Shown: positions 51,995-56,382 of the stretch, in pieces | Layout: each line of letters begins with the position of its first letter | How positions within the stretch are numbered: position 1 is the stretch's first letter | From: Fodinibius sp. Rm-B-1B1-1 | GTDB taxonomy: Bacteria > Bacteroidota > Rhodothermia > Balneolales > Balneolaceae | NCBI RefSeq assembly: GCF_038594945.1 | Contig: NZ_JBCFYD010000002.1 | Coordinates: 434,001 to 498,000 of the forward strand | Length of the DNA: 64,000 nt | Direction: 5' to 3' | The notes under the pieces: generated by a model | The model's database searches: none | What the model was told of the DNA's origin: nothing | The model's input: the letters and a program-made list of their open reading frames with translations, nothing else | Program-made: the position numbers and the translations under genes

Positions 51995-52993
51995 ATGTCT
52001 TACCGATTGCCCCCATCTGTACAAACAACCGAAGGCAATGAACGTCAGGTGGGTCTCGAAATTGAATTTGCCGGTATAGAGCCCGATGAAACCGCTAAAA
52101 TTATTACAGAACTTTATGGAGGGGAAATAAAAAAAGAGCATCGCTATAGTATTGAAGTGGTAGATACTTCGCTGGGAAACTTTCGAGTGGAGTTAGATGC
52201 TCGCATTCTTCGTCGGATGGCTCAGGAAAATATTTTTGATAAGCTGGGTATTGAGCTGGAGGAAGATAATTTTCGTAAATCAATTGAAGATATTGTTGAC
52301 AAACTGGCTCGAACGGTTGTACCGCTCGAAATTGTAATGCCCCCAATACCGATTTCGGAGCTTGATACATTGGAACAATTGCGCCAGGCGTTGCAAAAAA
52401 ATAAGGCAGAGGGGACCCATGCGTCGATGATACACGCTTTTGGGATGCATTTAAATATTGAAGCTCCGGATCTTTCTGTAGATACGTTATTGCGATATCT
52501 GCGGAGCTTTGTGATTCTTTATCCCTGGCTTGTGAAGGTTTTAAATATTGATATGACGCGGCGTATTTCTCCTTTTGTAGATCCGTTTCCGGAAAAGTAT
52601 GTACGTAAAATTTTGTCGCCTGATTATTCTCCTGATAAAGATAAACTTATTGAGGATTATATTGCGGTTAATCCCACCCGGAATCGTCCCGTAGATATGA
52701 TGCCCATTTTTGGCATGCTGAATAAGGATTTGATAGCCCCGGTTATGGAGGGTGAAAAGAATGATCCGCGTCCTACTTTTCATTACCGGTTGCCTAATAG
52801 CAGGATTGATGACTCCAATTGGCGATTTGAGCTGGAGTGGGACCATTGGCTGGTTGTTGAAGAACTTGCTGAGAACGATGAAATGCTTGATAAATTAAGT
52901 CGGTTATATCTACTGCGTAGAAAACAAACGGTTATTTCGTTTCGGAAGGAGTGGGCTGATACTATAGAAATTTTATTGGATATTGATGAGTAA
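51995..52993 (+). CDS. Amidoligase-family protein
   Basis: This 332-residue protein belongs to the Amidoligase_2 family, related to glutamine synthetase-like ATP-dependent ligases. The conserved start is QVGLEIEFAGI (first metal-binding Glu strand), followed by FRVELDARI, MHLNIEAPDLS and FELEWDHWLVVEEL. The family is predicted to form amide bonds, for example on peptides, amino acids or cell-wall parts; this is established only as prediction. Its stop overlaps the next gene by 8 nt, so the two are translationally coupled. Confidence 0.88.
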   Translation: MSYRLPPSVQTTEGNERQVGLEIEFAGIEPDETAKIITELYGGEIKKEHRYSIEVVDTSLGNFRVELDARILRRMAQENIFDKLGIELEEDNFRKSIEDIVDKLARTVVPLEIVMPPIPISELDTLEQLRQALQKNKAEGTHASMIHAFGMHLNIEAPDLSVDTLLRYLRSFVILYPWLVKVLNIDMTRRISPFVDPFPEKYVRKILSPDYSPDKDKLIEDYIAVNPTRNRPVDMMPIFGMLNKDLIAPVMEGEKNDPRPTFHYRLPNSRIDDSNWRFELEWDHWLVVEELAENDEMLDKLSRLYLLRRKQTVISFRKEWADTIEILLDIDE

Positions 52994-53777
52994 AGGCAGG
53001 CCAAATATTGGAGTGACAGGACCGGATAAGGGAGGACGTGCGGCTTGGTTATTTACCTGGTTTGCTGTGTTTCTACAAGGGGGGAGGGCAATCCGTATTC
53101 ATCCCCAAAAGGGATTGCCTGAGGAAGATATTCATGGGCTTATTATTGGTGGGGGAGCAGATATCAACCCAGAAAGGTATGGGCACGAAGAACTACAGGA
53201 TTTGTTTTCAAAGGATGAAAAAGTTTCCAGTATTCGGATCTTTTTTTATTACCTGCTTACTATTGTTTTTTTTCCGTTTATTTATCTGCTTAGAAAGATT
53301 TTTTCTACGGCCGAGGCGGGAGTAGATAAAGATCGCGATGAAATGGAATTTGCGTTAGTGGAAGAGGCGGTAGAAAAAAATATTCCTATTTTGGGAATTT
53401 GCCGTGGTGCGCAGCTTATGAATATCTATTTCGGAGGGACACTTCATCAGGATATTGCGAACTATTATACCGAGGTGCCGCGAGTGAAAAGCGTTTGGCC
53501 CAAGAAGATGGTGGAAGTGGAGGCTGGCAGTAAGCTTCGTGATATTCTGACTTTTGAGAAGGTATGGGTGAATGCGCTCCATCATCAGGCGGTGGATGCT
53601 TTAGGAAATAAGCTGAAAGTGGCTGCCCAAGAAGAAAATGGTATTATTCAAGCTATTGAACATCAAGAAAAAAGTTATGTGCTGGGGGTGCAATGGCATC
53701 CAGAATATTTACCTCAAATTCCGGCACAGCGCCGTATTTTTGCAAGGTTGGTGCAAGAAGCCTCTAAAATGAGCTAA
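52986..53777 (+). CDS. Class I amidotransferase/peptidase C26 with membrane insertion
   Basis: This protein of about 263 residues has a peptidase C26/GATase-I fold: LIIGGGADINPE, nucleophile Cys139 in GICRGAQLMN, and catalytic His238/Glu240 in GVQWHPEY. Gamma-glutamyl hydrolases and glutaminases use this triad. Residues 84-106 (IRIFFYYLLTIVFFPFIYLLRKI) form a strong hydrophobic stretch inserted between the early and nucleophile strands, so the enzyme is probably membrane-anchored. ATG at 52986 is used; a TTG one codon earlier also fits. It probably supplies or removes amide groups together with the amidoligase. Confidence 0.88.
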   Translation: MSKGRPNIGVTGPDKGGRAAWLFTWFAVFLQGGRAIRIHPQKGLPEEDIHGLIIGGGADINPERYGHEELQDLFSKDEKVSSIRIFFYYLLTIVFFPFIYLLRKIFSTAEAGVDKDRDEMEFALVEEAVEKNIPILGICRGAQLMNIYFGGTLHQDIANYYTEVPRVKSVWPKKMVEVEAGSKLRDILTFEKVWVNALHHQAVDALGNKLKVAAQEENGIIQAIEHQEKSYVLGVQWHPEYLPQIPAQRRIFARLVQEASKMS

Positions 53778-54231: not shown

Positions 54232-55869
54232 TTAACGGGCTGAGTTGGCGAAAGAGAGATCTGCTTTGTCTATGGATATATCAGCAATTTGTTGCAGGTT
54301 TTTGTGATATCGTTTAGCAGCCCAAAGATGATTTTTGGCTACTGCCGTTTCATTGCTTTTATACCATTTATAAGTAGCTAAAAATCCTTTTGCAACCCCA
54401 ACAGAATCGGTAGCATTGAGAGTGTTTTGTGGGCCTGATGGCAACGGAACCGAAAGTGAGCTGCCGGCATAAATAACGTCGGGATCGTCCAGCGAACCGT
54501 CGTGGCCATAAATCCAGGGCCATAATCGGGGGTTGCCGTAGCGCTCTTCAGCCATACTCCATAAGGTTTGTCCTTCTTCAATTTCTACTGATGTTTCGTT
54601 TTGCGTTGTTGTCGATACCGGTTGTGCCGCTTGCTGTGTTGATTGTGTATTGTTAGAGGGATTACTATTGTTTGATGTAGATTGATTTGCAGCTTCTGAT
54701 TGTTGTGCTTCGTCGGTTTCTTCGTTACTTATTTCTTCTTGCCGATCATCGGCTGCTTGCGAACTCGTGACATCAGCCGATGCTGTCGTTTGTTCCGAAG
54801 ATATTAACGGCATATTGGAATCAGACATATTGCTGTAATACCACGTGCCTCCAACAACGAGTAGTAATAAAATAACGGCTGCTGCCACGTAAGGAACCGC
54901 CGAGGTCCTATTGTCAGATCTTTGCATCTCAAGCATTGGCAGTGCTTCTACATCTTGTTTCTCCTCTTCCTTAGGTTCTTGATCATCTTTCGCCTGATCA
55001 GATTGCTGTTTCAGCTCTTCGGCGGTCTTTTCTAATTTTTCAACTTCTTCCGCTAAGATTTCTTCATTACTATCAGCAGAGGGTATTTCTTCATATTCTT
55101 CAGATTTCGGAGTTAGATCAACCTGTGAGTCAACATCTTCAGGCGTTATTTCTTCTTCAGTACCGATAAATTGTTCAAGAATCTCTTCGTCAGAATCTTC
55201 CTCATCAGAGGAATCTCCATCGAACTCCACGATATCCCCATTGTCATCATCAGACTCATTTTTTACTTCAGGTGATTTTGTGGAATCATCTTCAGCAAAA
55301 TTAAATGGATTGTCGTTTGTATCTCCTTTGGTATTATCTGGAGCACTTTCTAATACTTCCTCATCATGAGAAGTAGGGGGACCCGTAGGAATAAAATCAT
55401 CTTCGCGTAGTTTACCTTCTCTTGATGTGCAATCATCAGATCCATCATCATTTGCATCAGCAGAAGTTGATGGGTTTTCAACGTTCTTTGTTTCATTCAC
55501 CTCACTTTTTGAATCCGAGTTAGTAGGTTCACCAGATTCAGCTGGAGTTGCTTCGAGGAGCTTGGGCTCCATGTGGGCATAAGGGGCATTGACGAGCTCA
55601 CGAAGATCTTTGTAAGGTTTAAAGACGATTTTATTATGAGCAGGGATGGTCATTTTCTCCTCTGTTTGAGGGTTATAGCCTTCCCGTTCATCAACGTGTT
55701 TTAATTCGAACTTACCAAAGCCGGCAATATTAACCTTGCCGTCTTCTTCAAGTCCACCATTGATGATGTTTACAAAATCTTTGAGAAAATCATGGGTAAG
55801 CTGCTTTGAATGATCTGTTTCAGCAGCAATTGACTCAATGAGTTCCCCGAATGTGATTTTTTCACTCAT
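54232..55869 (-). CDS. HU-domain, transmembrane, LysM protein
   Basis: This is a 545-residue envelope-spanning protein. Residues 1-95 are an HU/IHF-type DNA-binding domain (KITFGELIESIAAET, VNIAGFGKFELKH). Residues about 110-305 are a very acidic disordered linker, ending in a short coiled segment (about 270-305). Residues 324-345 are a transmembrane helix (AVPYVAAAVILLLLVVGGTW). Residues 350-425 are Ser/Thr/Gln-rich, and residues about 426-478 are a LysM domain (QTLWSMAEERYGNPRLWPWI). The topology implied is HU in the cytoplasm and LysM at peptidoglycan. Proteins with HU joined to SPOR or LysM are known in Bacteroidota and are suggested to link nucleoid and envelope, but this is not proven. 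Confidence 0.9.
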   Translation of the reverse strand: MSEKITFGELIESIAAETDHSKQLTHDFLKDFVNIINGGLEEDGKVNIAGFGKFELKHVDEREGYNPQTEEKMTIPAHNKIVFKPYKDLRELVNAPYAHMEPKLLEATPAESGEPTNSDSKSEVNETKNVENPSTSADANDDGSDDCTSREGKLREDDFIPTGPPTSHDEEVLESAPDNTKGDTNDNPFNFAEDDSTKSPEVKNESDDDNGDIVEFDGDSSDEEDSDEEILEQFIGTEEEITPEDVDSQVDLTPKSEEYEEIPSADSNEEILAEEVEKLEKTAEELKQQSDQAKDDQEPKEEEKQDVEALPMLEMQRSDNRTSAVPYVAAAVILLLLVVGGTWYYSNMSDSNMPLISSEQTTASADVTSSQAADDRQEEISNEETDEAQQSEAANQSTSNNSNPSNNTQSTQQAAQPVSTTTQNETSVEIEEGQTLWSMAEERYGNPRLWPWIYGHDGSLDDPDVIYAGSSLSVPLPSGPQNTLNATDSVGVAKGFLATYKWYKSNETAVAKNHLWAAKRYHKNLQQIADISIDKADLSFANSAR

Positions 55870-56155
55870 CGTCTATGTCTACTTTTTTTAGATCTTCTTT
55901 AATACCCTTGCTTGCATTAAACTCTACCACCCTTTTAGGAGGCAACATCATGTACTGTTCGTAATGTGGATTAAATGACTTCCGCTTTTTCCGGGTATTT
56001 GTCCCAAACGTTCCCAACTCGGGGACCGTAAATCGTTTACCGGCGGCAATATTATCATTAAACGTATGGATAATTGTATCCAGTAATTCCCGGGCATCGC
56101 TTTGGGTCATATCCCAATGATCAGCAAGTTTGGCCACTAAATCACTTGTATTCAT
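55862..56155 (-). CDS. HU-family DNA-binding protein
   Basis: This 97-residue HU/IHF-type protein has an N-terminal helical dimerisation part (TSDLVAKLADHWDMTQSDARELLDTI) and the beta-arm region (FTVPELGTFGTNTRKKRKSFNP). The arm is atypical compared with HU (no RNPxTG). It overlaps the start of the HU-LysM gene by 8 nt, so translational coupling and a heterodimer are plausible. Confidence 0.92.
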   Translation of the reverse strand: MNTSDLVAKLADHWDMTQSDARELLDTIIHTFNDNIAAGKRFTVPELGTFGTNTRKKRKSFNPHYEQYMMLPPKRVVEFNASKGIKEDLKKVDIDDE

Positions 56156-56382
56156 ACGAATGAAGTACAGATTGTTTTTTCTGTTCAGACATTTCTAATT
56201 AAGAAAAAAAACTTTAAAAACTAAGTATATATTTCCACCTGTAGCTTAGAATATGTATAAATTATTATTTCTTGTGCATTTACTTGAAGAATAGGGCCTT
56301 TGTCTGGTATTTTAAGAAACGATTTTTGTAGGATTTTACTTTAGTTAATCAACTATACAGCGGAAACAAATCAAAAATATTT

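Follow-up and report, generated by a model that had tools for sequence, protein, structure and literature searches.

The minus strand of the Fodinibius sp. Rm-B-1B1-1 sequence studied here carries a pair of overlapping genes, the first encoding a small HU protein and the second a protein that joins an HU domain, a linker, a transmembrane (TM) helix and a LysM-like domain. This architecture, the gene order, the overlap and the joint presence or absence of the two genes recur among the Balneolaceae, and both genes have orthologues in Bacteroidales. The pair is a real, conserved two-gene system. Most likely it belongs to a general kind of chromosome-wall tether that is already known, with a wall domain new to that kind and an HU partner of full length. 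That the two genes together form a tether from the chromosome to the cell wall is the reading we favor, at slightly better than even chances.

The gene pair in the window

All coordinates are positions in the window, the 64,000-nt stretch of the Fodinibius sp. Rm-B-1B1-1 genome (Balneolaceae; Balneolota by NCBI) that was analyzed. The features are listed with their basis in parentheses.

54232..55869, minus strand: HU-linker-TM-LysM protein of 545 aa, in which residue n starts at 55869-3(n-1) (open reading frame, Pfam, NCBIfam, AlphaFold)
55585..55869, minus strand: HU domain at the N terminus (residues 1-95), carrying a beta-arm whose tip residue is Pro67, HU position 63 (PF00216, column counts)
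54901..55584, minus strand: acidic linker, residues 96-323 (charge count, AlphaFold)
54826..54900, minus strand: TM helix, residues 324-348 (hydropathy, AlphaFold)
54598..54825, minus strand: low-complexity spacer, predicted periplasmic, residues 349-424 (pLDDT <50 over 350-420)
54436..54597, minus strand: LysM-like domain of the Kbp/baseplate type, residues 425-478 (PRK11198, TsaP, AlphaFold, structural matches)
54235..54435, minus strand: conserved helical C-terminal tail, residues 479-545 (AlphaFold, conservation among relatives)
55862..56155, minus strand: partner HU protein of 97 aa (PF00216, model against 1p71_A)
55862..55869, minus strand: 8-nt overlap holding the partner stop and the fusion start, ATGAGTGA (read directly from the sequence)
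56156..56382, no strand: intergenic region toward the divergent aconitase gene, where any promoter of the HU pair would be expected

The initial annotation had placed an HU domain at residues 1 to 95 of the long protein, and Pfam Bac_DNA_binding matched residues 9 to 94 (E = 1.6e-24). It had also described a preceding HU-family gene with an 8-nt overlap; the 97-aa open reading frame found there matches PF00216 over residues 1 to 89 (E = 4.8e-19) and shares ATGAGTGA with the fusion gene. The TM helix, called at residues 324 to 345, agreed with hydropathy (324 to 342) and with a helix in the AlphaFold model (326 to 348). Between this helix and the LysM-like domain the spacer is predicted by AlphaFold to be disordered, and the conserved helical tail of the fused protein is an element absent from the earlier description. 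None of the Pfam or NCBIfam models matching the pair spans the whole architecture.

The claim of a very acidic linker held for the window protein, where the linker comprises 228 aa with a net charge of -57 and 33% D/E and contains a single predicted helix at residues 269 to 294 (AlphaFold). As a defining trait of the family it was ruled out: linker net charge runs from -48 to -81 in Fodinibius, is -48 at locus L040, lies between -36 and +3 in the other Balneolaceae examined and between -21 and -36 in four Bacteroidales, so that members span -81 to +3.

A cytoplasmic HU domain and a periplasmic LysM domain had been proposed, and this topology was set beforehand as a check. The number of K/R residues was higher before than after the TM helix in 33 of 35 proteins, with two ties and none reversed, and the first 100 residues contain no stretch above a hydropathy of 1.35. 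By the positive-inside rule, such an excess on the N-terminal side of the sole TM helix would place the HU domain inside and the LysM-like domain outside, which is consistent with the proposed arrangement.

On the plus strand of the window, at 51995-53777, an Amidoligase_2 gene overlaps a Peptidase_C26/GATase-type gene, and these genes adjoin the HU pair in most of the same-genus relatives that were read.

Conservation and ancestry of the cassette

We surveyed 67 Balneolaceae genomes, each at least 90% complete, with a profile of the LysM-like domain and tail. The profile matched in 59 genomes and found nothing in the other eight, and inspection of the loci identified a fused HU-TM-LysM gene in 56 of the 67. 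A single open frame joins the HU and LysM parts in 55 of these 56; in G186 (locus L211), the HU-TM part and the LysM part are in different frames, from either gene decay or an error in sequencing. Three genomes (G005, G007 and G011) gave a LysM-tail match with no accompanying HU match. There, the sole match is a LysM protein in an open frame of about 150 to 330 aa that is weak against the profile, and similar weak second matches occur in G002, G004, G008, G009, G188, G200 and G205.

Conserved synteny had likewise been set beforehand as a check on the pair. In all 55 Balneolaceae loci that include upstream sequence, the small HU gene immediately precedes the fusion; the 56th (G200) stops at a contig end (2,606 bases against about 3,370). 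Of 51 measured loci, 47 have overlapping genes; the shared stretch is 8 nt long in 30 loci, 4 nt in 12 loci, 11 nt in four and 1 nt in one, and the remaining four have a gap of 2 to 3 nt in place of an overlap. Among 27 loci of named relatives, one of which (L101, retained here) carries the title Chitinophagaceae instead of Balneolaceae, the partner was found in all 26 with room for one, and the overlap was 8 nt in 23 of those 26. Locus L117, which ends at a contig end, was left out of A5, and the small gene of L110 was left out of A6 and of the tree described below.

The 11 genomes without the fusion also gave no match resembling the small partner. Each has one or two full-length HU matches, taken by score and range as HU and IHF-like proteins, and most have CCDC81-type pieces. 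Five empty sites were inspected, four in these 11 genomes and one in G013 (86% complete and outside the 67), and in all five the aconitase and Dabb genes are adjacent and both HU genes are missing. Joint presence and absence, together with the empty sites, indicate that both genes are gained or lost together. Conservation in 56 of 67 family genomes puts the pair far beyond chance, and absence from 11 of 67 genomes, with a broken frame in G186, shows that it is dispensable.

Three other accounts of the locus were rejected. A chance fusion or frame error is at odds with the conservation of the start and domain order among relatives, and a phage or plasmid origin with flanks that are chromosomal and constant. 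A functional link to the aconitase, Dabb, amidoligase or GATase genes was discarded because the pair has other neighbors in L037 to L040 and in Bacteroidales.

Synteny is conserved within Balneolaceae, and the pair is not confined to Balneolota, since Bacteroidales share it. An HU/HU-TM-LysM pair was found in eight Bacteroidales-type loci, from Prevotella, Parabacteroides, Bacteroides and Phocaeicola and four from a phylum-wide profile search. Upstream of the pair lie ftsY and rimO in all eight, and MoxR and DUF58 (bat-type) genes lie downstream in seven (L089, L090, L091 and L243 to L246), with none observed in the stretch from Prevotella. Four of the eight have the 8-nt overlap (L075, L089, L244 and L246); L090, L091, L243 and L245 have gaps of 11 to 31 nt, not an overlap. 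Other families of the window organism's own order gave no match in 15 genomes, and at E = 1e-7 the Prevotella protein, used as a query, retrieved Balneolaceae only (13 of 148 genomes). In a phylum-level sample of 392 genomes, a mixed profile returned fused matches (best E at or below 1e-42) in 44 genomes, 40 Balneolaceae and four Bacteroidales-type, among the matches listed; the first plain HU gene appeared only at 3.4e-24. With this profile, trained on these two groups, no fused match outside Balneolaceae and Bacteroidales was seen among the matches listed from the 392 genomes, a 271-aa HU frame in G364 being left out.

A tree of HU domains was built with canonical HU and IHF-like controls, the 84 sequences being reduced to 81 after removal of three identical ones. 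All 33 small partners formed one clan (SH-aLRT 95.8, UFboot 100), as did all 33 fused HU domains (95.6/100), with the four Bacteroidales members inside each, and both clans were separate from the genomes' own HU and IHF-like proteins. When the Bacteroidales controls were omitted, the support was 88.1/88 for the small clan and 86.8/97 for the fused clan. The AU test rejected an independent duplication within Bacteroidales (p = 0.033) but the SH test did not (p = 0.057), and both tests rejected a grouping of the Bacteroidales small partner with the other HU proteins of Prevotella (AU 0.009, SH 0.0497). A tree with one clan per partner implies that the cassette is either old or moving as a unit. 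Judging from these sequences, it most likely arose once and then either descended by inheritance, being lost in places, or was handed on whole.

Properties of the HU and LysM-like domains

Both HU domains score well above the PF00216 cut-off of 22.4 bits, with 86.4 bits for the fused domain and 68.8 bits for the small protein. They are two of six HU-profile matches in the host genome, the others being a canonical HU, an IHF-like protein and two from an HU/HU-TM-SPOR pair considered below. The small HU model (pLDDT 80.5) matches DNA-bound Anabaena HU (1p71_A) with TM-scores of 0.82/0.84 and an rmsd of 1.6 Å. In the AlphaFold model of the fused domain the HU elements occur in order, at low confidence (pLDDT mostly 55 to 66).

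The presence of a DNA-binding arm in the HU part was a further check set in advance, and in Balneolaceae both the arm and the tip proline are present. Column counts found the proline at HU position 63 in every fused (29 of 29) and every small (29 of 29) protein of this family, the window pair included; in Bacteroidales it is present in four of four small and none of four fused proteins. Position 58 is R in all 29 Balneolaceae fused domains and, among the 29 small ones, K/R in 19 (with Bacteroidales included, it is basic in 33 of 33 and 23 of 33, respectively). Position 86 is K/R in 27 of the 29 fused domains of Balneolaceae and in all 29 of their small ones. Position 61 is basic in only one of 33 fused domains, the arginine otherwise being missing from them, and in none of 33 small ones, versus 11 of 12 controls. 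The charge of the DNA-side half (46 to 86) ranges from 0 to +6 in fused and from 0 to +8 in small domains, compared with +5 to +8 for canonical HU and for IHF-like proteins; for the window pair it is +1 (fused) and +6 (small), and for the genome's own HU +5. Taken whole, the fused HU domain has a net charge of -4 to -8 in Fodinibius and a family median of 0. From these residues we read the pair as a weaker, asymmetric and possibly salt-adapted putative DNA binder, with protein docking as the main rival.

The LysM domain called at residues 426 to 478 stands as a fold and is atypical as a family member. AlphaFold predicts a LysM-like beta-alpha-alpha-beta fold at residues 425 to 475 (pLDDT 84 to 95 by blocks of ten), and LysM domains top the list of structural matches with Z scores of 4 to 7, values that the tool's own note treats as modest (Z <8). 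The best match, to the Kbp structure 7vcm_B, spans 54 residues with an rmsd of 0.8 and a Z of 6.8, and other near structures are contractile-injection baseplates and chitin-binding LysM domains (7pvc and 7aeb being among the Kbp/baseplate matches). By sequence, the domain matched PRK11198 of NCBIfam over profile positions 75 to 146 of 149 (E = 3.2e-7, 30.9 bits against a curated cut-off of 134) and, among PDB sequences, TsaP (E = 0.0028). Pfam LysM (PF01476) scored the window protein at 13.6 bits against a cut-off of 20.9 and missed it in the genome scan; the Bacteroides homologue reached 20.1 bits. In that scan the model picked up six clear LysM repeats elsewhere in the genome, spread over two open frames, and for this reason wall binding should not be assumed. 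By sequence comparison and modeling, the domain is a divergent LysM of the Kbp/phage-baseplate type.

Related systems and the proposed role

Among known systems, the window pair comes closest to the HU-TM-SPOR (HU-CCDC81-type) ones, in which a small HU gene is likewise followed by a gene for an HU domain, an acidic linker, a TM helix and a peptidoglycan-binding-type domain, and the general layout of a small HU gene plus an HU-linker-TM-wall domain protein is found in the window pair too. Those systems have a SPOR domain where the window pair has a LysM-like one; the SPOR pair of this genome adjoins Tol/Exb-type genes and the window pair does not, and the HU domains of the window pair are full-length, unlike those of the HU-CCDC81 type. 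CCDC81-type profiles stayed under their cut-offs (bac_2, 18.2 bits for the fused and 20.6 for the small protein against 35; bac_1, 18.6 bits for the small protein against 26), and a search for a SPOR domain in the window fusion gave no match up to E = 1. With HU/IHF proteins (PF00216) the pair shares sequence family, fold and, in Balneolaceae, a beta-arm with tip proline, but here one of the two proteins also carries a membrane anchor and LysM as a fusion. The small partner passes the HU-HIG model (PF18291; 28.5 bits against 26.2) but fits PF00216 better (68.8 bits), the fused protein scores 17.9, and none of the fusions behind the HU-HIG family name (wHTH, Ig, glycine-rich) was matched in the pair. 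Kbp/YgaU and the baseplate LysM proteins (PRK11198; 7vcm, 7pvc, 7aeb) share the LysM fold and are the closest sequence and structure matches to the window LysM, but the fusion lacks a BON domain, is predicted to place its LysM-like domain in the periplasm and has a helical tail of its own. RodZ has a cytoplasmic fold of nucleic-acid-binding type (HTH), one TM helix and a periplasmic domain; it shares the cytoplasm-TM-periplasm plan and differs in having HTH in place of HU, in binding MreB and in lacking LysM.

A pair of the SPOR kind is present in the same genome, outside the window (L042 5309-8640, G000:C1). At L042 5309-6630, a 63-aa HU half is followed by an HU-acidic linker-TM-SPOR gene (Pfam SPOR, 3.2e-10), and the pair directly precedes ExbB/TolQ-, ExbD/TolR- and TonB-C-type genes. 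SPOR is a known peptidoglycan-binding domain, and Burroughs, Kaur, Zhang and Aravind reportedly proposed in 2017 (Cell Cycle 16:1093) a chromosome-partition role for HU-CCDC81-type HU-TM-SPOR proteins of Bacteroidota. The HU profile coverage of the two pieces is complementary (22 to 81 in the small, 2 to 54 in the fused). A small HU half with an HU-SPOR gene occurred in all eight relatives' loci checked, with an ExbB-type gene alongside in six (L067 to L072) and none seen in the short L073 and L074 stretches. Four genus mates without the LysM pair (G001, G005, G007 and G011) retain the SPOR pair. The MinC C-terminal domain was found in none of 20 Balneolales genomes, with six of 14 control genomes positive. 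Two parallel HU tethers of the same plan, one septal (SPOR, beside Tol/Exb-type genes) and one sidewall (LysM), might together coordinate nucleoid and envelope in MinC-less cells, a role that falls elsewhere to Min, Noc or SlmA, but we regard this extension as unlikely.

For the window pair, the favored tether would work as follows. The long protein would span the inner membrane, its HU domain facing the cytoplasm and its LysM-like domain the periplasm, as the charge rule predicts. The small HU, presumably sharing a transcript with the fusion and translated in an overlapping and probably coupled manner, would dimerize with the fused HU domain to form a two-armed unit that could bend and hold DNA. 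The linker would provide reach from membrane to nucleoid, and the LysM-like domain may hold peptidoglycan. The nucleoid would then likely be attached locally to the envelope, which may serve its positioning, its segregation or its sparing at division.

In favor of a tether are the conserved synteny with joint presence and absence, the orthology of both genes with those of Bacteroidales, the predicted topology, the arm with its tip proline in Balneolaceae, the DNA-side charge of the window pair, the predicted LysM fold and the parallel SPOR pair. Several observations count against it: taken whole, the fused HU domain has a net negative charge in Fodinibius, the position 61 arginine is missing in 32 of 33, and the fused HU of Bacteroidales has no tip proline. 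The LysM-like domain is missed by Pfam and is nearest in structure to Kbp, a cytoplasmic potassium-binding protein; the fused-HU model is weak, the Z scores are modest, the pair is dispensable, and the SH test gave p = 0.057. The same acidity in Fodinibius, with the loss of the tip proline in four of four Bacteroidales fused domains, would suit an HU pair that does not bind DNA and acts as a protein-protein module, docking onto the nucleoid's HU or another cytoplasmic partner and linking it to the envelope. In the 2017 work of Burroughs and coworkers, eukaryotic CCDC81-type HU domains are said to act in protein contacts, which would also fit. Balneolaceae, however, keep the arm, the tip proline and the DNA-side basic residues at positions 58 and 86, and we judge such docking unlikely.

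We think it a little less probable still that each HU protein homodimerizes with no mutual dimer and that the overlap only sets expression. Homodimers are possible in principle for two full-length HU domains, and the AlphaFold runs were single-chain; strict pairing and co-absence of the genes speak against this view, as does the separate lineage that each partner keeps in Balneolaceae and Bacteroidales, and the pieces of the SPOR pair cover the profile at 22 to 81 and 2 to 54 as if mutually needed. Least likely of these, in our estimate, is a membrane sensor whose LysM-like domain would respond to wall state, turgor or potassium and whose HU unit would alter how DNA is shaped or transcribed close to its own gene or to others. 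The LysM-like domain is nearest in structure to potassium-binding Kbp (7vcm_B, 7pvc), Fodinibius species are halophiles, and HU and IHF proteins act as architectural regulators. The BON domain of Kbp, which shares in potassium binding, is nevertheless missing from the fusion, and the pair has no constant neighbor across its range, gene context differing between Balneolaceae genera and Bacteroidales.

To our knowledge, few descriptions exist of a bacterial system dedicated to linking the chromosome directly to peptidoglycan. A search of open-licence PMC papers returned none on an HU-LysM protein, and no binding experiment on such a pair was found in the open-licence literature. Read as a tether, the cassette offers a conserved two-gene candidate for a direct chromosome-peptidoglycan link, and because the pair is also present in the genetically tractable Bacteroides, nucleoid-envelope attachment in this phylum becomes testable.
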